Virus record (IMG/VR): IMGVR_UViG_3300032287_003622
Span: 1-64,000 of that record
Reading direction: 5' to 3' (one strand)
Origin: a virus
DNA: 64,000 nucleotides
Shown here: piece by piece, positions 34,002-61,659 of the stretch
Numbering within the stretch: the stretch's first letter is position 1
Layout of the letters: each line of letters begins with the position of its first letter
Notes under the pieces: generated by a model
What the model was told of the DNA's origin: nothing
Database searches by the model: none
The model's input: the letters and a program-made list of their open reading frames with translations, nothing else
Position numbers and translations under genes: made by a program

Positions 34002-34526
34002 ATGGCAACTTACGTATCGACAAAAACATATGGCACGGACCGCGGCCTGAGCTGTTGCTTTCGGCAATGGCGCAGCACTCACAGTCATTGCAGTTTGCTA
34101 CACGGCTACTCAATCGGCATCAAATTAATCTTTGAAAGTGAGACCTTGGATGATCGCAATTGGGTCATGGACTTTGGTGGGCTCAAGGCCTTCAAAGAGT
34201 GGGCCGAATGGCAGTTTGATCACACCACTTGCGTGGCCGAAGATGATCCACATCTGGACCTGTTTTTGGAAATGGCCAGACTGGGCCCTTATGACAAAGG
34301 TGGCGTGATTGATCTACGCATCGTTGAAGCAGTGGGTTGTGAAAAGTTCGCCGAACTGGTTTACCGAACCATGGATCATATACTAAAGGCCTATCAGGCA
34401 GGTGGTGAATGGACACATCCAGATGGACGCACATTTTCGGCACGTTATCCAGTGGGTCAAGGTGTGCGCCTACGCAGTGCAGAAGTGTTTGAGCACGCAG
34501 GCAATTCGGCCATCTACGAAGGCTAG
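34002..34526 (+). CDS. queD: 6-carboxy-tetrahydropterin synthase-like (QueD)
   Basis: 174 residues. T-fold signatures: RSTHSHCSLLHGYSIGIKLI (zinc His cluster and catalytic Cys area), VMDFGGLKAFKEWAEWQFDH (catalytic Asp-His pair) and VFEHAGNSAIYEG near the end. Second step of the 7-deazaguanine pathway: dihydroneopterin triphosphate to 6-carboxy-tetrahydropterin. Longer than E. coli QueD (~121) because of an insertion around 85-125. Own promoter, separate from folE and queE. Confidence 0.88.
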   Translation: MATYVSTKTYGTDRGLSCCFRQWRSTHSHCSLLHGYSIGIKLIFESETLDDRNWVMDFGGLKAFKEWAEWQFDHTTCVAEDDPHLDLFLEMARLGPYDKGGVIDLRIVEAVGCEKFAELVYRTMDHILKAYQAGGEWTHPDGRTFSARYPVGQGVRLRSAEVFEHAGNSAIYEG

Positions 34527-34552
34527 TATTTGTTGACTGGATAAACGGCATA

Positions 34553-34560
34553 TATAAATA
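34553..34560 (+). promoter_or_regulatory. T4 late promoter box TATAAATA
   Basis: Exact TATAAATA 9 bases before the ATG at 34569, in a 42-base gap. It precedes the long overlapping glycan operon (34569-39350). The short distance implies a very short leader. Confidence 0.55.
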
Positions 34561-34568
34561 TTCGTTCA

Positions 34569-35438
34569 ATGACAAATGAATATTCCATAGCGGTATTGTT
34601 GCCTACACGTAGTAGGACCACCGCGCTCACTGACAGTGTGACCAGTATAATTAATTTGGCCGCGGATGTGGCACATTTACAACTGCTTTTTGGTTTTGAT
34701 AACGACGACTCCGTGGGCCTAGACCATTTTGAAAAAGTCATACAGCCGTTCCTGGACGAACATGATGTAAGTTACGAAGCCCAAGCCTTTGACAGTTTGG
34801 GATATGCCGGACTAAATCTTTATTACAATCATCTCGGAAAAAGTGCGTCGACGGATTGGTTATTTGTTTGGAATGACGATGCGATCATGCAAACGCAGGA
34901 TTGGGATAAGGTTATAGAATCTTACACCGGACAGTTTAAACTACTGAAAGTTCACACCCACAACGAACACCCATACAGTATTTTTCCCATAGTTCCGCGA
35001 GCTTGGTATGATCTGTTTGGTCACTTTAGTCGGCACCAGATGATCGATGCTGAAATGAGTCAAATGGCCTTTATGTTAGACCTCATGCAAATTGTAGACA
35101 TTGACGTGGTTCACAATCAGGTAGAATTGACCAAAGATGCATCTGATCCTCTCAAACCTAAGATGAGATTTGAAGGCAATCCCAACAATCCTTATGACTT
35201 TCATAATCCTTCTGTTACTCAAAGAAGGATCCAGGACTGTGACATTATCGCAAATTACATGAAATCTAATAACCTGGATACCACATGGTGGGACAATGTC
35301 AAGGCTGGAACTCAATATCCCTGGACACGCATGGAGGCACTTGATATAAACAATCAGATGAGACAGTTCGAACTCAAAGCCGATTCGGCTGGCCGTGTGG
35401 TAGAAATCAATCCTAGCAAACGTCACGATGCCAAATAA
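34569..35438 (+). CDS. GT-A type glycosyltransferase (family 2-like)
   Basis: 289 residues. IAVLLPTRSRTTALTDSVTSI is the N-terminal nucleotide-binding strand, LLFGFDNDDS an acidic loop and TDWLFVWNDDAIM the DxD-type metal site (NDD). The later part is less clear. A similar short GT2-like protein is frequent in cyanophages. First gene of an operon of sugar-modifying enzymes; acceptor unknown. Confidence 0.7.
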   Translation: MTNEYSIAVLLPTRSRTTALTDSVTSIINLAADVAHLQLLFGFDNDDSVGLDHFEKVIQPFLDEHDVSYEAQAFDSLGYAGLNLYYNHLGKSASTDWLFVWNDDAIMQTQDWDKVIESYTGQFKLLKVHTHNEHPYSIFPIVPRAWYDLFGHFSRHQMIDAEMSQMAFMLDLMQIVDIDVVHNQVELTKDASDPLKPKMRFEGNPNNPYDFHNPSVTQRRIQDCDIIANYMKSNNLDTTWWDNVKAGTQYPWTRMEALDINNQMRQFELKADSAGRVVEINPSKRHDAK

Positions 35439-36666
35439 TCAAATAAACCACAGCCAACTGATTGATCATTGCAAGATCACCAAGCAACCAGTGACAAAAA
35501 TTCTTGACTTTGGTCAGCATGCTTATGCTGACACATTTATCAAATCTGATCAACTGAATCTCAGTGAACCTATTTTTCCATTACAGGTATATTTGAATCC
35601 CAAAAGTGGTAGTATTCAATTAGGTTATGTGAGTCAGGCAGAAGATCGTTATAATCTTTACAGTTATAGTTATACTTCAAGCAACAGCGCCACGGCACGA
35701 GCACACTGGGACGAATACAGCCGCACCGTTCAAACCCCTCCGTGGCAACGTCCTGCCATGGCCGTGGAAATTGGCAGCAACGATGGATACTTGATTGAAC
35801 AATTTGGCCGACTTGGTCGTAGAATCTTGGGCATTGACAGCTCCAAGTCCATGTGCGACCTGGCGCGATCTCGTGGCGTGCCAACTATTAATGCCTTGTT
35901 CGATAAGGAAGTGGCCCAGCGTGTGATCAACGAACATGGTCATGCAGACATAATCATGGCCAACAATGTATTCAACCACGCCAATGATCCAGTCACATTT
36001 GCTAGAGCTGTGGCCACCTTGCTGGCCGACGATGGTGTATTTGTGTTTGAAGTGCCTTATTGGCTCAGCATGATCGAAAGCGGTCGTTTCACTGACATGG
36101 TGTATCACGAACATCCTACTTACTTCACAGTCAAAATGGCATGGAACGTGCTAAAGGCAGCTGGATTAGAAATTGTTGACTTTGATGTGGTAGATTATCA
36201 TGGCGGAAGCCTGCGAGTATTTGCGAGGCGCGACACTGGAGGTGCAGTGCCTGTCAAAGTAGAAGATGCTGTTACACGTGAAACACAGATAGGTTTATTT
36301 GATCCACGTTTCTACGAAGTGGTGCAACGCAGATTTGAACAACAGCGAGACGCTTGGTTGCAAGAATTTTATCGGTTACGCCTGGCCGAGCCCGATGCTG
36401 TGTTTATAGGAGTGGGTGCTGCTGCCAAGGCCAATACTTGGCTGACCTGGCATGGACTCAACAAAACGCATCTCAAGTATATCACAGATGCCAGTGAGTT
36501 TAAACAAGGCAAATACACACCACTGAGTCGTATTCCCATAGCCAGCGACAACATATTTGCTCAGTATGATCGGCCCTATGCCTTGATACTGAGTTGGAAC
36601 ATTGGCGACGGCCTGCGCCGAGCCATTTTAGACATTAATCCCAACACAAGGTTCTTATCGCAATGA
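35428..36666 (+). CDS. NDP-sugar C-methyltransferase (TylC3/EvaC type)
   Basis: 412 residues. Three-part build of sugar C-methyltransferases: N-terminal region HCKITKQPVTKILDFGQHAYADTF, central SAM domain MAVEIGSNDGYLIEQFGRLG with MANNVFNHANDP and VFEVPYWLSMI...YHEHPTYFT (catalytic His-Glu-His pattern), then a C-terminal Rossmann-like domain FIGVGAAAKANTWLTW. The N-terminal Cys set of the zinc site seems reduced. Methylates a 3- or 4-keto sugar; cupin and SDR partners follow at once. Confidence 0.82.
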   Translation: MPNNQINHSQLIDHCKITKQPVTKILDFGQHAYADTFIKSDQLNLSEPIFPLQVYLNPKSGSIQLGYVSQAEDRYNLYSYSYTSSNSATARAHWDEYSRTVQTPPWQRPAMAVEIGSNDGYLIEQFGRLGRRILGIDSSKSMCDLARSRGVPTINALFDKEVAQRVINEHGHADIIMANNVFNHANDPVTFARAVATLLADDGVFVFEVPYWLSMIESGRFTDMVYHEHPTYFTVKMAWNVLKAAGLEIVDFDVVDYHGGSLRVFARRDTGGAVPVKVEDAVTRETQIGLFDPRFYEVVQRRFEQQRDAWLQEFYRLRLAEPDAVFIGVGAAAKANTWLTWHGLNKTHLKYITDASEFKQGKYTPLSRIPIASDNIFAQYDRPYALILSWNIGDGLRRAILDINPNTRFLSQ

Positions 36667-37067
36667 AATACTACAACATCAACAAAAACATCGAAAAAGG
36701 TCTAGGTCAGTTCACTGATGAGCGTGGCTCTATCACCGACATTTTTTATGGCAAAGTCATGAATCATGGATGTATCATCACCAATGCGCCTGGTGCTGTG
36801 CGTGGCAATCACTATCACAAGCTGACCACACAATACACCTTGGTATTGAATGGCACGCTGAACTATTATAGCAAACCTGTGGACAGCACTGAACCAGCAC
36901 ACTTGTTTGTGGCCGGACATGGCGACATGATCATCAGCGAACCCATGGAAATACATGCCATGAAAACTGGCGAACATGGTTGCACATTCCTGGCATTTGC
37001 CGAAGGTCCTCGTGGCGGCGAAGATTATGAGTCTGATACCTATCGAGTAGACAGCATAGTCAAGTAA
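36663..37067 (+). CDS. RmlC/FdtA-like cupin (sugar isomerase/epimerase)
   Basis: 134 residues, ATGA overlap. DERGSITDIFYG opens the cupin; GAVRGNHYHKLTTQYTLVLNG gives the metal- or substrate-binding His pair, followed by GHGDMIISEPMEIHAM. Most like dTDP-keto-sugar 3,4-isomerase or 3,5-epimerase families. Acts on the same nucleotide-sugar as the neighbouring methyltransferase and SDR. Confidence 0.75.
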   Translation: MKYYNINKNIEKGLGQFTDERGSITDIFYGKVMNHGCIITNAPGAVRGNHYHKLTTQYTLVLNGTLNYYSKPVDSTEPAHLFVAGHGDMIISEPMEIHAMKTGEHGCTFLAFAEGPRGGEDYESDTYRVDSIVK

Positions 37068-37678
37068 TGAGAAAACCACGTGCCGTAATTTTTGGAGCCA
37101 AAGGCGGAATAGGTGCTGCTGCTAGGCAGATGTTTTTGGATCAGGGTTGGCAGACGATTCCCATTGACAGCGGCCAACTTGACTTTGATCGACCCGACAG
37201 CTATCAAAAACTACAAGAGCTTTTGGACAATGCCGAAGCAGATGTCATTGTCAATTCCGTCGGAGTGTTCCAAAATGGCTACAGCAATGATCATCAAACT
37301 ACGATGAACGTAAATTTTGGTAGCAATTGGCATATCATTAGATATTTGGAAACACATAGAGCTATGTCTGTGACAGTGATAATGTTAGGAAGCAGCAGCT
37401 ACACCAGGGGTAGAAAACTGTATCCACTCTACAGTGCCAGCAAAGCAGCCCTGTTTAACCTGTGGCAGAGCGCCCGAGATCAATTCGTAGATACCAATAT
37501 ACGCATTCACTTATTGAATCCGGTGCGCACACTGACCCCTATGGCTACCGCTGGTAAACCAGCTGATCCAGATTTGGACTATCTTGAACCTCGACAGGTC
37601 GCTGTAGAGATTTTTAGGCTATCGGATCCAAGTTGCGTAAGTAGTTGCGTAGATATGACTTTTGAGGACACTAAATGA
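37067..37678 (+). CDS. Short-chain dehydrogenase/reductase
   Basis: 203 residues; ATG overlaps the cupin stop. AVIFGAKGGIGAAARQMF is the NAD(P) loop, DVIVNSVGVFQNG the NNAG-like strand, and YPLYSASKAALFNLW the Tyr-xxx-Lys active site with an upstream Ser (LGSSSYTRG). Slightly short for the family. Probably reduces a keto-sugar made in this operon. Confidence 0.8.
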   Translation: MRKPRAVIFGAKGGIGAAARQMFLDQGWQTIPIDSGQLDFDRPDSYQKLQELLDNAEADVIVNSVGVFQNGYSNDHQTTMNVNFGSNWHIIRYLETHRAMSVTVIMLGSSSYTRGRKLYPLYSASKAALFNLWQSARDQFVDTNIRIHLLNPVRTLTPMATAGKPADPDLDYLEPRQVAVEIFRLSDPSCVSSCVDMTFEDTK

Positions 37679-38451
37679 AAATAGGAATAATTGGAAAAGG
37701 CACTGTTGGATCTGCTGTGTTTGAAGGTTTGGAATATCTTGGTCATACCATGAGTTTCTTTGATCCCAAGCATGAAGGATCTAAAATGGATCATGTGTTG
37801 GACACCGACGTGGTGTTTATCAGTGTGCCCACAGACCAAGCACCCAATGGTGACTGTGACACCAGCATTGTAGACAATGTAGTGGCCGAATTGGCAGTCA
37901 ACAATTATAAAGGACTGGTATCGATCAAAAGTACCGTGATTCCAGGAACCACTGATAGACTACAAAAACAGTATCCGACTCTACGTATGAGCATGGTGCC
38001 AGAATTCCTGCGTGCCAAGAGTGCCTTGGCCGACTTTGTTTACAATCATGACCTACTGGTGGTAGGTTGCTACAACAAGAAAGATGCCGACATCATAGTA
38101 GAACTACACGGCAGTTTCCCACAACATGTGAGTCGTGTGACTCCAGTCGAAGCTGAAGTAATAAAATATTTCAACAATGTGCATCATGCCATGAGCGTGA
38201 CCTTTGCCAACATTGCCTATGATGTGTGTGGCAAGCTGGGTGCTAACTATATGAATGTTTACAAGGCCATTGTCAAACGTGAATGTTTCAATCCTGCCTA
38301 TTTGATGGCCAACAAAAACATGCGTGGTTACGGCGGACACTGCCTGCCCAAGGACACCGCGGCCTGGAATAATTTGATTAAAAAATTGGATCTACCATAC
38401 AACATGATCCAAAGTGTAATAGACGACAACGAAAAGGTTCTCAAACAATGA
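37675..38451 (+). CDS. UDP-glucose/GDP-mannose dehydrogenase-family protein (short)
   Basis: 258 residues, ATGA overlap. GIIGKGTVGSAVFEGLEYLG (NAD loop), VVFISVPTDQ, ISIKSTVIPGTT, and the catalytic Cys in NMRGYGGHCLPKDTAAW. It stops after the central domain, lacking the UDP-binding C-terminal domain of typical ~430-residue enzymes. It might oxidise another sugar or act as a reductase. A longer paralogue is at 40974. Confidence 0.75.
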   Translation: MKIGIIGKGTVGSAVFEGLEYLGHTMSFFDPKHEGSKMDHVLDTDVVFISVPTDQAPNGDCDTSIVDNVVAELAVNNYKGLVSIKSTVIPGTTDRLQKQYPTLRMSMVPEFLRAKSALADFVYNHDLLVVGCYNKKDADIIVELHGSFPQHVSRVTPVEAEVIKYFNNVHHAMSVTFANIAYDVCGKLGANYMNVYKAIVKRECFNPAYLMANKNMRGYGGHCLPKDTAAWNNLIKKLDLPYNMIQSVIDDNEKVLKQ

Positions 38452-39350
38452 AGATACTAGTGACCGGTGCCAGCGGCTTGTTGGGCACAGAAATTTGCCG
38501 ACAACTCAAGCAAGAGGAAGGCATAGAAGTATGGGCCGTGGACAATCACAGCCGTAGTTCCACAGTGCCCGACTGTGACAAGTTCTTGGAATTAGATTTG
38601 ACCAACGGTGCTAATTTTGCACAGTTGCCCACGGACTTTGATTATATCTATCATTATGCAGCCATCAACGGCACCAAGAATTTTTATGACCGTCCCAATC
38701 AAGTCATGTGGACCAATATGTGTGCTGATTTTAACATGTTTGAATTTGCTATGTTATGCGGAAAAAATTTACAAAAGTTTGTGTATGCATCTAGCAGTGA
38801 AGTGGTTTCAGATGACCCACAGACACCGGTCAAAGAAAACACAGACATTGTTATAAAAAATATACACAATGCTCGTTGGAGTTACCGATTGCCAAAAATT
38901 TGTAGTGAAAATTTCTTGGTCAACAGCAAGATACCTTATGTGATGTTTCGTTACTTCAACGTATATGGTGACAACTCAAAGGCCGGGCACTTTCTGGCCG
39001 ATCAAATCGCCAAGATTAAATCTGGAGTATTTGACGTTGTTGGACCCGAGGAAACACGCAGTTTTTGCCATGTGGAAGATGCTGTGCGAGCCAGCATACA
39101 TGTTAGTCGTGCGGTGAAAAATGAATTGGTGAACATCGGCAACGATAGAGAAATCACTGTCATGGAGGCTGCACAAACCATTGCCCGTGCCATGGGACAT
39201 ACCGATGCGGTCTGGATCACCACGCCCGGCAAGGCCGGAAGCACTGCTACACGCAGGCCCGATATCTCCAAACTAAAAAGTGTTTTAAAAGACTATCGTC
39301 CCAGGACTTTTGAGCAAGGTGTCCAAGAAATCATTGACAAAATGAAGTGA
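38448..39350 (+). CDS. NAD-dependent nucleotide-sugar epimerase/dehydratase
   Basis: 300 residues, ATGA overlap. ILVTGASGLLGTEICRQL (NAD loop), YIYHYAAINGTKNFYDRP, VYASSSEVVSD and a downstream active-site region ARWSYRLPKICSENF with the Tyr-xxx-Lys arrangement. FRYFNVYGDNSKAGHF and ETRSFCHVEDAV are family-typical. Works with the preceding enzymes in making a modified sugar. Confidence 0.82.
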   Translation: MKILVTGASGLLGTEICRQLKQEEGIEVWAVDNHSRSSTVPDCDKFLELDLTNGANFAQLPTDFDYIYHYAAINGTKNFYDRPNQVMWTNMCADFNMFEFAMLCGKNLQKFVYASSSEVVSDDPQTPVKENTDIVIKNIHNARWSYRLPKICSENFLVNSKIPYVMFRYFNVYGDNSKAGHFLADQIAKIKSGVFDVVGPEETRSFCHVEDAVRASIHVSRAVKNELVNIGNDREITVMEAAQTIARAMGHTDAVWITTPGKAGSTATRRPDISKLKSVLKDYRPRTFEQGVQEIIDKMK

Positions 39351-39362
39351 TTGCCGTATAAT
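39334..39362 (+). promoter_or_regulatory. Consensus sigma70 promoter
   Basis: TTGACA (39334-39339), 17-base spacer, TATAAT (39357-39362), immediately before the ATG at 39368, so the transcript would be nearly leaderless or use an internal start. Confidence 0.65.
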
Positions 39363-39367
39363 AAAGT

Positions 39368-39904
39368 ATGAAAAAAATCTATCATACTTGGCAAGACGTA
39401 GAAAGCCAGACACAAGAAATTCTACGACAGATGCATTTAGATGCCTGGCGCCCGGACTATGTGGTTGGACTCACCCGCGGTGGCCTGGTTCCGGCCAATT
39501 TGATCAGCCAATATCTTGGTTGTAGGATGGAAACACTCAAAGTCAGCCTGCGTGACGGTAGCCAACAAGAAACCAACTGTTGGATGGCCGAGGATGCGTT
39601 TGGTTATGGCGGTGACGACGGTTATCCAACCGACTCCCTGAAAAAAAATATCCTGATCGTGGATGACATCAACGATTCGGGTGCTACGTTAAACTGGATC
39701 AGGCAAGATTGGATGGGCAGTTGTTTCAGCACCAGTCCAGTGTGGGATCACATCTGGGGTCACAATGTGCGTGTGGCAGTGCTGGTTGATAACGAATCAA
39801 GCAAGAATGAAATTCCTGTCAGTTACAGTGCAGTTGATCTAAATAAAGCTGAAGAAGATTGTTGGATTGTTTTTCCTTGGGAATCATGGTGGCAATCTAA
39901 ATAA
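39368..39904 (+). CDS. Phosphoribosyltransferase (type I)
   Basis: 178 residues. The PRPP-binding motif KKNILIVDDINDSGATLNW is canonical, and YVVGLTRGGLVPANLIS forms the diphosphate loop. It resembles xanthine/hypoxanthine PRTases of phages. Likely salvages a purine base for nucleotide supply. Own strong promoter. Confidence 0.85.
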   Translation: MKKIYHTWQDVESQTQEILRQMHLDAWRPDYVVGLTRGGLVPANLISQYLGCRMETLKVSLRDGSQQETNCWMAEDAFGYGGDDGYPTDSLKKNILIVDDINDSGATLNWIRQDWMGSCFSTSPVWDHIWGHNVRVAVLVDNESSKNEIPVSYSAVDLNKAEEDCWIVFPWESWWQSK

Positions 39905-39908
39905 ACAT

Positions 39909-40106
39909 ATGAAAATAAAATATCGTAAACCCACATTAGTTGAACAGATGAACGAGGCCATAGACACGGCTAAACAACCCATAGATTATTTTGAACTCTC
40001 GCAAGCCGAATTTCAATCAGTGTTTAATAACTTAGATAAAACCAATTCAAAAAATACAGTTGCATATTCATACAAGGGTATTACCATAAAGGTCTCCAAT
40101 GAGTAA
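39909..40106 (+). CDS. Small hypothetical protein (65 aa)
   Basis: ATG at 39909; the box CTAAATAA at 39897-39904 lies just upstream. Starts MKIKYRKPTLVEQMNEAI. The tail SYKGITIKVSNE is beta-like. Overlaps queE by 8 bases. No family. Confidence 0.55.
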   Translation: MKIKYRKPTLVEQMNEAIDTAKQPIDYFELSQAEFQSVFNNLDKTNSKNTVAYSYKGITIKVSNE

Positions 40107-40977
40107 AATAAAAGTTTCGGAAGTTTTTTATAGTTTACAAGGCGAAGGTCGGTTTGTAGGTGTGCCAAGTGTGTTCTTGAGAACATATGGTTGCAACTTT
40201 ACCTGTGCAGGGTTTGGCTGTAAACCCGGCGAAAAAAGCACAGGTGCCGACGAAGTAGCCAAGATTGTTGAGCAGTTTGACAGCTTTGAACGCTTGCCCT
40301 TGGTAGAAACCGGTTGCGATAGTTATGCATCGTGGCATCCGGCATTCAAACATCTCAGTCCCAATTACACCACTGAAGAATTAGTGGACAAGATGTTGGC
40401 ACTCACACCCAACAACGCTTGGGTGCAGAACAATGGCAACGACGTGCATCTCGTGATCACCGGCGGCGAACCTTTGTTGGGCTGGCAACGTGCCTATGGA
40501 GAATTGCTGGGCCACGAACGCATGCAAGATCTGCGTAACATCACTTTTGAAACCAATGGCACACAAGAACTACACAAGGACTTCCGTCACTTTTTACTAG
40601 ACTGGACCTTGAATCCAAAATTTGGAAAACGTGGTAAAGCAACACTTACATTCAGTGTCAGTGCCAAGTTGAGTGCGTCGGGCGAAAAGTGGGAAGATGC
40701 CATATGTCCCGACATCGTGATAAGCTATGCAGAGATTGGACATACATATTTGAAGTTTGTTGTAGAGACTGACGCTCACATCGAGGAGGCCATACGTGCA
40801 ACAGATGAATATCGGCGAGCAGGATTTAAAGGTGTAATTTATTTGATGCCACAAGGTGGTGTAGTCCAGCCTTACGATAGAAACAAACTGAGAATCGCAG
40901 ACATCTGTGTGGAGCAAGGTTGGAACTACAGTCCTAGATTGCATGTAGATTTATGGGGTAACGGATGGGGCAAATGA
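40099..40977 (+). CDS. queE: 7-carboxy-7-deazaguanine synthase (QueE), radical SAM
   Basis: 292 residues. FYSLQGEGRFVGVPSVFLRT is diagnostic for QueE. The cluster cysteines read GCNFTCAGFGC, i.e. C-x3-C-x4-C rather than the usual C-x3-C-x2-C; another Cys lies in VETGCDSYASW. ITGGEPLLGW is the SAM GGE motif and FETNGTQE follows. Converts carboxy-tetrahydropterin to CDG, the step before QueC. Longer than E. coli QueE because of an insertion after the cluster loop. Confidence 0.88.
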   Translation: MSKIKVSEVFYSLQGEGRFVGVPSVFLRTYGCNFTCAGFGCKPGEKSTGADEVAKIVEQFDSFERLPLVETGCDSYASWHPAFKHLSPNYTTEELVDKMLALTPNNAWVQNNGNDVHLVITGGEPLLGWQRAYGELLGHERMQDLRNITFETNGTQELHKDFRHFLLDWTLNPKFGKRGKATLTFSVSAKLSASGEKWEDAICPDIVISYAEIGHTYLKFVVETDAHIEEAIRATDEYRRAGFKGVIYLMPQGGVVQPYDRNKLRIADICVEQGWNYSPRLHVDLWGNGWGK

Positions 40978-42212
40978 CAAACATTGGATTTATTGGGTTG
41001 GGCAAACTGGGCATGGACGCAGCAGAAGTGTTCGCCCAACATTACAAAGTTCGCGGCTACGATATCTTGCCAAGAACATCAGACACAGTTGAGGTGTGTG
41101 ATATTCGAGAAGTAGTGCAGGCCAGCGATTGGATTTTTGTTGCTGTGCCTACTCCGCATGCTGAGGGCTACGATGGTTCAGTTCCGTCAAGTCATATGAC
41201 TCCCCGAGACTTTGGACACGACGCTGTGCAAGACAGTTTGATCAAGATAAATCACTTTGCGACCACACCCAAAAAAGTAGTGTTAATCAGCACTGTGTTG
41301 CCAGGCACCACCAGACAACGTTTTGTAGGACTGTTAAACAAACAACATCAATTCTTGTATAATCCTTACTTGATTGCCATGGGATCAGTCAAATGGGACA
41401 TGGTCAATCCAGAAATGATCATGATTGGCACCGAACATGGAGATCGCACTGAACTGGCCGAAGAACTGGTAGAACTTTACCGCCCTATGGTTCAAAACAA
41501 TCCCAGATTTGAAATCGGGACCTGGGAAGAGTGCGAAGCCATCAAGATATTTTACAACACGTTTATCAGCGCCAAGGTTGGATTGGTCAACATGATACAA
41601 GATTTTGCCCAACGCATAGGAAACATCAATGTAGATGTGGTGACCTCGGCCTTAGCACGTAGCACCATGCGTATCATGGGACCCAAGTATATGACCGCAG
41701 GCATGGGCGATGCCGGTGCTTGCCATCCCCGAGACAACATAGCCCTGCGCTGGTTGGCCGAAGAATATGATATTGGTTATGACTTGTTTGATACCATCAT
41801 GTTGGCACGAGAACAACAGGCTCGCAATCTTGCCCGATTCTTGATCGAGCTAGCCAACAAGCACAATTTGCCCGTGGTCATCCACGGCAAAGCCTACAAA
41901 CCCGATGTGCCTTACTGCATCGGCAGTTATTCGACCTTGATCGGGCACTATGTTCAAGAGCTGGGTCAGCAAATATTTTACGTCGACCCTTTAGCCGATG
42001 ATCAGACATCAGTGGTCTCAGATGTAGACCGTGCCGTGGTGCTCATGGCACACAATCGATCTGTGACCTACAACTATGTAGACGGAGATCATACCGATCA
42101 TTTTTATTATGATATCAAGCCCGGTAGCGTGATAGTCGACCCTTGGCGCCAACTGCCTCTGGACCTGTTGGGTATGACCGTGATACATTACGGAAATACT
42201 CGTCGAAAATGA
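40974..42212 (+). CDS. UDP-glucose/GDP-mannose dehydrogenase-family protein
   Basis: 412 residues from the ATG at 40974 (ATGA overlap). IGFIGLGKLGMDAAEVFAQ (NAD loop), WIFVAVPTPHAEGYDG, LISTVLPGTTRQ, active-site Cys region AGMGDAGACHPRDNIALRWL, and a C-terminal UDP-binding-like domain (VVIHGKAYKPDVPYCIGSYS). Full three-domain length. Oxidises a nucleotide hexose to a uronic acid or similar. Confidence 0.85.
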   Translation: MTNIGFIGLGKLGMDAAEVFAQHYKVRGYDILPRTSDTVEVCDIREVVQASDWIFVAVPTPHAEGYDGSVPSSHMTPRDFGHDAVQDSLIKINHFATTPKKVVLISTVLPGTTRQRFVGLLNKQHQFLYNPYLIAMGSVKWDMVNPEMIMIGTEHGDRTELAEELVELYRPMVQNNPRFEIGTWEECEAIKIFYNTFISAKVGLVNMIQDFAQRIGNINVDVVTSALARSTMRIMGPKYMTAGMGDAGACHPRDNIALRWLAEEYDIGYDLFDTIMLAREQQARNLARFLIELANKHNLPVVIHGKAYKPDVPYCIGSYSTLIGHYVQELGQQIFYVDPLADDQTSVVSDVDRAVVLMAHNRSVTYNYVDGDHTDHFYYDIKPGSVIVDPWRQLPLDLLGMTVIHYGNTRRK

Positions 42213-48560: not shown

Positions 48561-48577
48561 TGGTAGGACGGGCCCGA

Positions 48578-48606
48578 TTGACAAATAAATAGGTGTGTCG
48601 TATAAT
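48578..48606 (+). promoter_or_regulatory. Consensus sigma70 promoter of the tmRNA gene
   Basis: TTGACA (48578-48583), 17-base spacer, TATAAT (48601-48606). Transcription should start near 48613, just before the acceptor piece. Confidence 0.8.
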
Positions 48607-48612
48607 ATTAAA

Positions 48613-48680
48613 GAATTGTAGTTTAATGCCTTGACAGAAAGGTGTTGCGGACTCGGGGGCAGTGCCCGACGGGTCCACCA
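48613..48680 (+). ncRNA. ssrA: Permuted tmRNA, acceptor piece
   Basis: Ends with CGGGTCC + A + CCA (48670-48680). Its 7 nt pair with the 5' end of the coding piece at 48706. T stem TCGGG/CCCGA encloses a 7-nt loop GGCAGTG (48658-48664). That loop fits the GGCRGUD consensus I recall for alphaproteobacterial two-piece tmRNAs, in place of the usual TTCRANY. The 5' boundary is approximate. Confidence 0.8.
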
Positions 48681-48705
48681 TAAGAGCATACTGTGTTTTT
48701 ATGAT

Positions 48706-48866
48706 GGGCCCGACACAGTTTCGACGTGGCAACAAGTATGAACAGGATCTACACAGTAGGCGATGACTGTAAATCAAGCAAACCTAAATAACCGCTAATG
48801 ATGAGTTATTTCTAGCAGCCGCTTGATCGGTATGCGTGAGCAACTATGCTTAGAAACAGAAAATAG
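48706..48866 (+). ncRNA. ssrA: Permuted tmRNA, coding piece with proteolysis tag
   Basis: The 5' GGGCCCG (48706-48712) pairs 7 bp with the acceptor piece (one G-U). It is followed by the tmRNA signature TTTCGACGTGG. The tag frame starts at GCT 48794 and reads ANDELFLAAA-stop (TGA 48824-48826), like bacterial tags of the ANDE...LAA type. The order acceptor-then-coding, separated by 25 bases (48681-48705), is the circularly permuted arrangement that is processed into two pieces. The 3' boundary is approximate. Confidence 0.85.
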
Positions 48867-48867
48867 C

Positions 48868-48891
48868 AATAGGGCCTTCGGGCCCTATTTT
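48868..48891 (+). terminator. Intrinsic terminator of tmRNA
   Basis: AATAGGGCC-TTCG-GGCCCTATT (a 9-bp stem capped by a UUCG tetraloop) followed by a T-rich end. Confidence 0.85.
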
Positions 48892-48917
48892 GTTGACCAT
48901 AATAGACTCAGTTTACT

Positions 48918-49023: not shown

Positions 49024-49764
49024 ATGAAAAAATTATTATTAGCATTGGCCTTGTCCGCTGGCTTTGTTGCCTCGGCTCAAGCTCAACTCACCGGCAATTT
49101 AGGTTTGACCAGCGACTACCGTTTCCGCGGTGTTAGCCAAACCCAAAATGCTCCTGCAGTTCAGGGCGGCATCGACTATGCACACAAGAGTGGCTTCTAC
49201 GTTGGTAACTGGAACAGCTCGGTCTCTAGCCAAGTCTACACCGCAGGTGCAGGTTTAGAAAGTGACTTGTATGCTGGTTACAAGAAAGAAATCTTCAAGG
49301 GCATCAGCATTGACGTTGGTAGCTACAACTATTTCTATCCACGTGCAACCACTTCAGCACGGACTGGTTCAAACTTTGACACCTATGAAGCCTATGTTGG
49401 TTTATCACATGGCGACCATATCAGTGCCAAGTATAGCAGAGTCCTAGGCGATGGCTATTTTGGTACAGCCAATGCTCAAGGCACAACCTACATGCAAGCC
49501 GATGGCAAGTTGCCAGTTCCTGTAATCAAGAACCTAGCAGTTGTAGCTCATTATGGTCGTACCAATGTGGCCAACAGTTCAACCTTGGATTACAATGACA
49601 TCAATGCTGGTATTGTTTACAGTCTACCCAAAGATTTTGATTTAAGTGTCAAGTATTTTACCAATACTGGCACCACAAGAACTTTTGAAACTGCAAACAC
49701 TGTGAGCGGTCAAAAACTCTACAAGAATGCAGTGGTAGTGGGCTTGACAAAAACTTTTAATTAA
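49024..49764 (+). CDS. TorF-family putative outer-membrane porin (Gcw_chp)
   Basis: 246 residues from ATG 49024, chosen because it opens on a signal peptide (MKKLLLALALSAGFVASAQA). The mature part is a repeated beta-strand pattern: LTGNLGLTSDYRFRGVSQTQ, VQGGIDYAHKSGFYVGNW, the family hallmark of the TIGR02001/Gcw_chp proteins of Proteobacteria, and it ends with a strand plus terminal Phe-Asn. Expected in the outer membrane. Preceded by late boxes and closed by a strong terminator, so it is a single-gene unit. Confidence 0.85.
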   Translation: MKKLLLALALSAGFVASAQAQLTGNLGLTSDYRFRGVSQTQNAPAVQGGIDYAHKSGFYVGNWNSSVSSQVYTAGAGLESDLYAGYKKEIFKGISIDVGSYNYFYPRATTSARTGSNFDTYEAYVGLSHGDHISAKYSRVLGDGYFGTANAQGTTYMQADGKLPVPVIKNLAVVAHYGRTNVANSSTLDYNDINAGIVYSLPKDFDLSVKYFTNTGTTRTFETANTVSGQKLYKNAVVVGLTKTFN

Positions 49765-59805: not shown

Positions 59806-60092
59806 ACTATTATTACGAACTAGATGAACGCACACAAAAGGCCAACTTGGAACAGTGGCACCTTTGGTGCATGCCCAACTGTTCGCCGGCTGACGGAGGA
59901 CGCATGTGTTTCAAAACACACGACGCCTTCATGGCCAACAGCCGCAGGGTCTGGTTGGAAAATCGCAACGGTGTTTACTTGGTCAAACCCACCTGGGGTA
60001 TATACAGAGGACAGGTAGATGATCGTGAGTTTACCATGATCAAACTCAGAGCAAAAACTATCAAATGGTGGGAAGATGAATATCAAAGTTAA
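59802..60092 (+). CDS. Small protein preceding the halogenase
   Basis: 96 residues from ATG 59802 (overlaps member 4). LEQWHLWCMPNCSPADGGRM and FTMIKLRAKTIKWWEDEYQS at the end; the family motif is weaker (DREFTMIKLRAK), so membership is uncertain. Overlaps the halogenase by 17 bases, so the two are translated together. Confidence 0.6.
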   Translation: MNYYYELDERTQKANLEQWHLWCMPNCSPADGGRMCFKTHDAFMANSRRVWLENRNGVYLVKPTWGIYRGQVDDREFTMIKLRAKTIKWWEDEYQS

Positions 60093-61659
60093 ACGAATAA
60101 TCGTGCTTGGCGGCGGAACTGCCGGCTGGTTGAGTGCTGGCTTTTTGAGCAGTCAGTTAGAGGATGTAGAAATCACGGTAATACACAGCCGGGAAGTGCC
60201 TATCATTGGTGTAGGCGAAACCACGGTGCCACAGTTCCGTAACCATTTGGAAAAGATGGGTCTCAGCGAAGATGTATGGATGCGTGAGTCAGGTAGCACA
60301 TTCAAATATGGAGTGACCTTTGATGGTTGGCGCACAGGGTCAGATACTCGTTGGCACGGCTTTGGCGATTTTGTCACAGAAAAAGGTCTTAATCGTAGCC
60401 CAGATGAGTTTGGCAAACGTCAAAGCGTGGCCAAGGATGACCAAGTGTTATTAGCGGACTACTGGATCGAACTTCTTAAACGCGGTTGGATTGCCGAACA
60501 GGATCTTTATCAGTATGCGTCAGATACCTATCATCTAGTGCAAAATCGTCGAGCACACAGAAATCTCGACGGACATCAATATATGAGTCGTGTGCCCGGA
60601 TATGCTTACAACATAAATGCTTTCAAGGTCGGACAAACCATAAAGAATCATGTGGCATTGCCGAAAGGCGTGCGAGCTTTGGAAAGACACATAGTTGAAG
60701 TGCGCCGTGGAGAAAATGAAGAAATCACAGGTCTTGTGGATGACACTGGAGAAACGCACACCGCTGATCTCTACATAGACTGCTCAGGATTCAAGCGCCT
60801 GCTGATAGGTACAGTGGCCAAATGGATTTCGTTTGAAAAGAGATTGCCTTGTAAGAATGCCATCGGTGGTCGTGTGTATTATCAAGACGACCAAGAAGAA
60901 TTTTGTGTGCCTAATCTACATGCAACTGCTCTTAAACACGGTTGGTCATGGCGTGTGCCGTTGCGTGATGACTTGGGTTCGGGCTATGTATATGATACTA
61001 GATTTACCACCACAGACCAGGCCATTGCTGAATTACAAGATTATTGGCATAGCCAAGGAAAACAATGGGATCACAAGGTCACGTTGAGTTTTGAAAATGG
61101 TATCTTAGAAAAATCTGCCCACCGTAACGTGATTGCATGTGGACTCAGCTCCAACTTCCTAGAGCCTTTGGAAGCCACGTCAATAAGTTTTACTACCTTG
61201 GTCAACGAACTGTTGGTAGCAGTGCTGAAAAAACACGACAACCATTGGTCATGGAAAGAAGCTGAAGTCATCAGCAGACTCATGCATAGAGAGATCAAGA
61301 TCACCGGCGACTTCTTGTGGTGCCATTATGCACTCACCGAAAGAACAGATACCGAGTTCTGGCGTGAAGTCGCAAAACAACGTGAGGAAGCCATAGAAAC
61401 TTGTCATAACTGGTTTGGACGTCATTTCAGCGATATCTATCGTAGAGAAAAAGACTTTGATCACACACGCTACAACAAATATGACTGGGCACAGATGATC
61501 ACTACCATGCGTATCTGGCAGGATTGTCCTACACGTGAAATCACAGAGGCCTTGTTGCCTAGAGCACGACTATGGTATCAGCATAGAGACGAAATGGCCC
61601 AAGGTGTGCTGGATCTTGTGCCCACACACTGGCAACTGATACAACATATCAATCAATGA
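60076..61659 (+). CDS. Flavin-dependent (tryptophan-type) halogenase
   Basis: 527 residues. FAD loop IIVLGGGTAGWLSAGFLSSQ; GVGETTVPQFRNHL; the catalytic Lys in STFKYGVTFDGW; the diagnostic GW-x-W-x-x-P motif as KHGWSWRVPLRDDL; later GLSSNFLEPLEATSI. Full length for the family (~500-540). Uses FADH2, O2 and halide to halogenate an aromatic substrate. It resembles the viral halogenase VirX1 of cyanophage Syn10 in kind. No flavin reductase lies in this window, so a host one is needed. Confidence 0.92.
   Translation: MNIKVKRIIVLGGGTAGWLSAGFLSSQLEDVEITVIHSREVPIIGVGETTVPQFRNHLEKMGLSEDVWMRESGSTFKYGVTFDGWRTGSDTRWHGFGDFVTEKGLNRSPDEFGKRQSVAKDDQVLLADYWIELLKRGWIAEQDLYQYASDTYHLVQNRRAHRNLDGHQYMSRVPGYAYNINAFKVGQTIKNHVALPKGVRALERHIVEVRRGENEEITGLVDDTGETHTADLYIDCSGFKRLLIGTVAKWISFEKRLPCKNAIGGRVYYQDDQEEFCVPNLHATALKHGWSWRVPLRDDLGSGYVYDTRFTTTDQAIAELQDYWHSQGKQWDHKVTLSFENGILEKSAHRNVIACGLSSNFLEPLEATSISFTTLVNELLVAVLKKHDNHWSWKEAEVISRLMHREIKITGDFLWCHYALTERTDTEFWREVAKQREEAIETCHNWFGRHFSDIYRREKDFDHTRYNKYDWAQMITTMRIWQDCPTREITEALLPRARLWYQHRDEMAQGVLDLVPTHWQLIQHINQ

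Follow-up and report, generated by a model that had tools for sequence, protein, structure and literature searches.

A phage-borne, circularly permuted tmRNA gene with a beta/phage-like body and an alphaproteobacterial-type elbow: a probable mosaic

The window analyzed here comprises the first 64,000 nucleotides of IMG/VR virus record IMGVR_UViG_3300032287_003622, a fragment of 134,932 bases from a T4-like, probably jumbo, phage, and it carries on its plus strand a circularly permuted, two-piece transfer-messenger RNA (tmRNA) gene. The precursor, taken from the likely transcription start to the terminator, spans 48613..48891, with support from ARAGORN, Rfam models and folding. It is preceded by a sigma-70 consensus promoter (TTGACA-17 bp-TATAAT, 48578..48606; 12/12 matches), which recurs in relatives L026, L028 and L029, and it closes with a terminator-like UUCG hairpin and U-rich sequence (48868..48889); a terminator scan flagged this hairpin on the minus strand only, the plus-strand T-run lying slightly below threshold. 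An earlier note, made from the letters alone, had described both flanking signals, which are indeed present, and had set the gene at 48578-48892; the end is right to within one base, while position 48578 belongs to the -35 box and not to the RNA.

The acceptor piece comes first (48617..48680) and consists of the 5' helix strand, the T-arm UCGGG-GGCAGUG-CCCGA, the acceptor 3' strand CGGGUCC and an encoded ACCA end; its T-loop, GGCAGUG within a 5-bp stem, lies at 48658..48664, give or take 1-2 bases. A hairpin-forming intervening segment of 25 nt (48681..48705), presumably cut out by tRNA-processing enzymes, leads to the coding piece, whose 5' end GGGCCCG (48706..48712) pairs with CGGGUCC over 7 bp as the note had proposed, including the alanine identity pair G3-U70 (a U-G pair, alignment columns 127-161). 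The D-loop segment AGUUUCGAC follows (48717..48725), in which an A precedes GUUUCGAC, and then the stretch CACAGUAGGCGAUGACUGUAAAUCAAGCAAA with its 4-bp hairpin (48754..48784). The tag reading frame GCT...TGA (48794..48826) encodes ANDELFLAAA, with a hydrophobic, Ala-rich end before the stop. The fold of the precursor beats 200/200 shuffles (z -3.4). Two acceptor pairs are altered on both strands in five distinct relative sequences (C-G to A-U and G-C to U-A), with all cells pairing; when the partner strand was slid by 1-3 columns, pairing fell to about 34-41% and no both-sided changes remained. Because the sequences are few and a shuffle control equals the observed pairing value in 22 of 500 shuffles, the compensatory changes taken alone are moderate evidence for two-piece pairing.

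ARAGORN identifies a permuted tmRNA with the tag ANDELFLAAA, in agreement with the earlier reading of that tag. Covariance searches, which the note had put forward as a check, likewise bear out a phage-borne permuted tmRNA: Rfam RF04321 (tmRNA_permuted) matches 48617-48826 with 127.4 bits (E 1.5e-24; gathering score 47), and RF01850 (beta_tmRNA) matches 48564-48891 with 125.5 bits (E 7.9e-38; gathering score 84). The alpha_tmRNA model, RF01849, gives 74.8 bits, which passes its cut-off of 50 but falls 51 bits short of the beta model; the body of the gene is not closest to alpha_tmRNA. The beta model scores at most 73 bits for the 66 alpha-type genomes among 398 Pseudomonadota and 161-331 bits for true beta genomes, with the window gene at 125.5. 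The tag points the same way: the ANDE start is found in 7/7 permuted beta genes and several phage genes, whereas most of 30 distinct alpha tags carry an ANDN motif and only one begins with ANDE. A comparison of tags, also suggested at the outset, thus aligns the gene with beta and phage sequences, save for that single alpha case. All seven beta references have the ordinary T-loop TTCRAYT; the window gene has GGCAGUG, so that it departs from the beta-type UUCRAYU. Six near relatives share the 25-nt spacer letter for letter, and so do L245 and L210, two phage genes whose T-loop is ordinary and whose T-arms and acceptors are different; the 31-nt stretch CACAGTAGGCGATGACTGTAAATCAAGCAAA recurs unchanged in eight viral genes, every one with an ordinary T-loop. 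These observations bear on direct capture, in which the whole gene would have been taken from an alphaproteobacterial host and would later have diverged toward a beta-like appearance. Capture accounts for the alpha-type T-loop, its coupled D-loop A and the alpha_tmRNA match above cut-off, yet the better beta score, the ANDE tag and the segments shared with ordinary-T-loop phage genes tell against it, and we consider it unlikely.

Nine viral contigs (L026, L028, L029, L018, L285, L021, L023, L286 and L287) carry a nearly identical tRNA-like core, several of them at the same locus upstream of a Gcw_chp gene; ARAGORN missed all nine. Relative to L285, the core agrees at 66/68 positions (97%) and the downstream Gcw_chp gene at 237/251 (94%), compared with merely 59/84 in the tag part and 4/24 in the terminator. 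The family has three forms of tag: ANDELFLAAA (10 aa), ANASNDEVFALAA-like (13 aa) and AKTSTGEVTVSGKNVKFSARSAQRQSLAV-like (28-29 aa). These alignments show that the tag half has been exchanged between conserved flanks. Tags of at least 20 aa make up 20/71 distinct viral tags versus 3/30 in the alpha set; phage permuted tmRNAs often have tags of 22-33 aa (L021, L023, L286, L287, L163, L184, L192, L177 and others), and some long ones form recognizable sequence families (AKTST..., ANADTF...GNTV...). A tag-region pattern search of viral contigs returned no match, and blastn against isolates gave just three short matches to the gene itself and no close relative. Within the family, L285, L286 and L287 have spacers of 74-98 nt in place of the 25-nt segment, their cores being otherwise near-identical, and L286 and L287 have a different hairpin downstream of the D-loop. 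By eye, a reading frame that lies upstream in L021 and L023 seems to run into the 5' end of the tmRNA and stop there (GAATTGTAG); these two lack the window-type promoter. That the window gene has decayed into a nonfunctional relic, or that it inhibits the host's tmRNA, is highly improbable, since G3-U70, CCA, the T-arm, the tag frame, the promoter and the terminator-like hairpin are all intact, the acceptor changes are compensatory and the core is nearly fixed across the nine relatives.

The T-loop GGCAGUG is of the alphaproteobacterial type (GGCRGUD). The window's T-arm pattern occurs at 99 loci in 84,980 prokaryote genomes (one per species), titled as alphaproteobacteria or "uncultured proteobacterium" apart from one metagenome-assembled genome (MAG) of Ignavibacteria and one unnamed uncultured bacterium; the assignment of this loop in the earlier note therefore stands. 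The Ignavibacteria contig (L107) holds a permuted tmRNA with an alpha-type elbow and may be misbinned or a phage contig. We compared the elbow, that is, the T-loop together with the D-loop base that precedes GUUUCGAC, in about 230 permuted tmRNAs found with search patterns that leave this base free. The ordinary T-loop goes with G in 96/96 distinct sequences and the alpha T-loop with A in 134/137, two of the three exceptions having AG one base farther upstream. T-loop and D-loop base are thus a coupled unit, co-varying almost without exception.

To place the elbow on a phylogeny, a maximum-likelihood tree of 107 rows was built with the T-loop omitted and the D-loop base masked. Elbow type changes 8 times on it (7-9 over bootstraps; starred branches require no fewer than 5), and the best tree nests the window family among ordinary-T-loop phage genes, a placement that counts against direct capture. 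A tree in which every alpha-elbow row is forced into one group is rejected (p-AU, the P value of the approximately unbiased test, 0.0003). Sister genes with opposite elbows illustrate these changes: L008 (GGCAGTA, tag ANKRALGFADLTLLLPSKTELRLAA) versus L142 (TTCGATT, tag ANKKALGFADVTFMLPGKTELRLAA), and L012 (GGCAGTA, AACTAGTTTCGAC) versus L229 (TTCGATT, AACTGGTTTCGAC), the latter two being about 80% identical overall. On this tree, the alpha elbow is scattered over several separate phage lineages, whether by recombination or by change in place. Because it recurs in this way, it is unsafe as a marker of descent. In the description of Methylophilales phage Melnitz, an ssrA tree was read as evidence of alphaproteobacterial ancestry and of a change of host (PMC9004378).

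The distribution of elbows over isolate phages raises the alternative that the elbow was altered in place to fit alphaproteobacterial SmpB and so reports host class rather than ancestry. The alpha elbow occurs in phages of Ruegeria, Rhodobacter, Phaeobacter and Sinorhizobium and in DSS3_MAL1, whose record gives no host; the ordinary elbow occurs in phages of Pseudomonas (PA_L9), Xanthomonas (XacN1) and Synechococcus (BUCT-ZZ01). SmpB binds the elbow of the tRNA-like domain, and the contact between D- and T-loop is required for this binding (PMC3968760), which makes selection for the host's SmpB plausible; the otherwise close genes L012 and L229, which differ in the T-loop and the single D-loop base, fit such selection as well. 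On the other hand, the isolates amount to about six independent lineages only, and Melnitz, a phage of OM43, which is not an alphaproteobacterium, is an exception in having the alpha elbow, although the authors of that study argue that the phage moved over from SAR11 only recently (PMC9004378). Clues to the window's own host diverge: its DNA polymerase is nearest to those of jumbo phages of Sinorhizobium and Agrobacterium, its exonuclease points to Pseudomonas jumbo phages, and homologues of the adjacent Gcw_chp gene lie mostly in genomes that do not register as alpha. On balance, we regard adaptation in place as nearly as probable as not; it is compatible with a mosaic origin and may be its cause. 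The polymerase affinity, and the presence of this elbow in five isolates that infect alphaproteobacteria or are named after one, are also what direct capture would predict. Some isolates carry permuted tmRNAs that are not annotated as such. Xanthomonas phage XacN1 (L297) and Pseudomonas phage PA_L9 with its relatives (L298) have the ordinary T-loop, and hosts of these two genera are expected to have one-piece tmRNA. Sinorhizobium phage Phosso (L300, 349596-350198) has an unusually long intervening segment of 410 nt, and ARAGORN missed it. In Atu_ph07, considered as a further carrier, no permuted tmRNA was detected, and the sequence matched there by blastn is a tRNA-Gly.

The explanation that we favor, and hold with good though not full confidence, is that this is a functional phage permuted tmRNA with a mosaic make-up drawn from the phage tmRNA pool: the body resembles beta and phage genes, the elbow is of the alpha type, and the tag half can be replaced. 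On this account, the gene would not simply be an alphaproteobacterial ssrA that was captured recently. The claim in the earlier note that it was taken from an alphaproteobacterium is accordingly not upheld, given a body that is beta-like and above all phage-like, the ANDE tag and an alpha elbow found in several phage lineages. Several points weigh against the mosaic explanation. The beta comparison comprises seven bacterial genes, and the tree uses about 156 columns with an unsettled bootstrap. A tree forced to unite the window family with alpha bacteria is not rejected (p-AU 0.25), a result compatible with capture, and because of it the elbow-bearing core could still be of alphaproteobacterial origin. 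Support for tmRNA function comes from the level of sequence, and the failure to find SmpB in the 135-kb phage record, which fits reliance on the host protein, is not final in a fragment. Likewise, no phage smpB was seen among 21 records.

If the mosaic gene functions as its family does, host RNA polymerase would transcribe one precursor from the strong promoter, host tRNA-processing enzymes would excise the spacer of 25 nt, and the 7-bp acceptor stem would hold the resulting pieces together, a pairing that the compensatory changes back. The host alanyl-tRNA synthetase would probably charge the RNA via G3-U70 and host SmpB would bind its elbow; the RNA could then rescue ribosomes stalled in infection and add ANDELFLAAA, which may direct the tagged fragment to host proteases. 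A broader and more tentative idea, which we think possible but rather doubtful, is that the two-piece tmRNAs of phages recombine as one pool, that elbow and tag half are swapped between lineages as separate modules, and that the elbow follows the SmpB of whichever host class the phage currently infects. If so, elbow type would predict the host class of uncultured phages, and a changed tag would send rescued proteins to a different fate.

The Gcw_chp protein that adjoins the tmRNA is encoded at 49024-49764 of the window. Elsewhere, the window contains a sugar-nucleotide/surface-polysaccharide gene set (34002-42212) and a gene for a tryptophan halogenase family protein (60076-61659).

Phage-borne permuted tmRNAs have been published before: 53 two-piece tmRNAs were counted among 18,146 phage genomes, with proposed roles in keeping hijacked translation going or in recycling host proteins (PMC9004378), and 79 unique bacteriophage tmRNAs have been listed (PMC11915505). 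The present gene is a genuine new member of this group, and what it adds is its probable mosaic make-up; neither a switch of elbow nor replacement of the tag half came up in the literature searched, which covered few subscription papers. The alpha T-loop, a lineage marker, becomes a switching trait in phages, which calls for caution in reading host or origin from the elbow. Natural pairs of near-identical genes, distinguished by hardly more than the elbow or else by the tag half, are suited to tests of SmpB specificity and of tag function.

Set against the known families, the gene shares with RF04321 and RF01850 the layout, acceptor, T-arm, spacer and tag position, and differs in its T-loop, GGCAGUG where they have UUCGAUU, and in the base before GUUUCGAC, A where they have G. 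With alpha_tmRNA (RF01849) it has in common a T-loop of the form GGCRGUD and the A coupled to it in the D-loop, but its hairpin stretch and its tag are not alpha-like. The ssrA of Melnitz (PMC9004378) is, like the window gene, phage-borne, two-piece and equipped with the alpha-type elbow; it differs in its 142-nt spacer, its tag ANDNYVPVDYALAA, a reported glutamine riboswitch and a separate position in the tree. Closest are the nine viral contigs, whose cores are near-identical to that of the window gene and which differ from it in tags of 13 and 28-29 aa, in two compensated acceptor pairs and, in L285, L286 and L287, in longer spacers.
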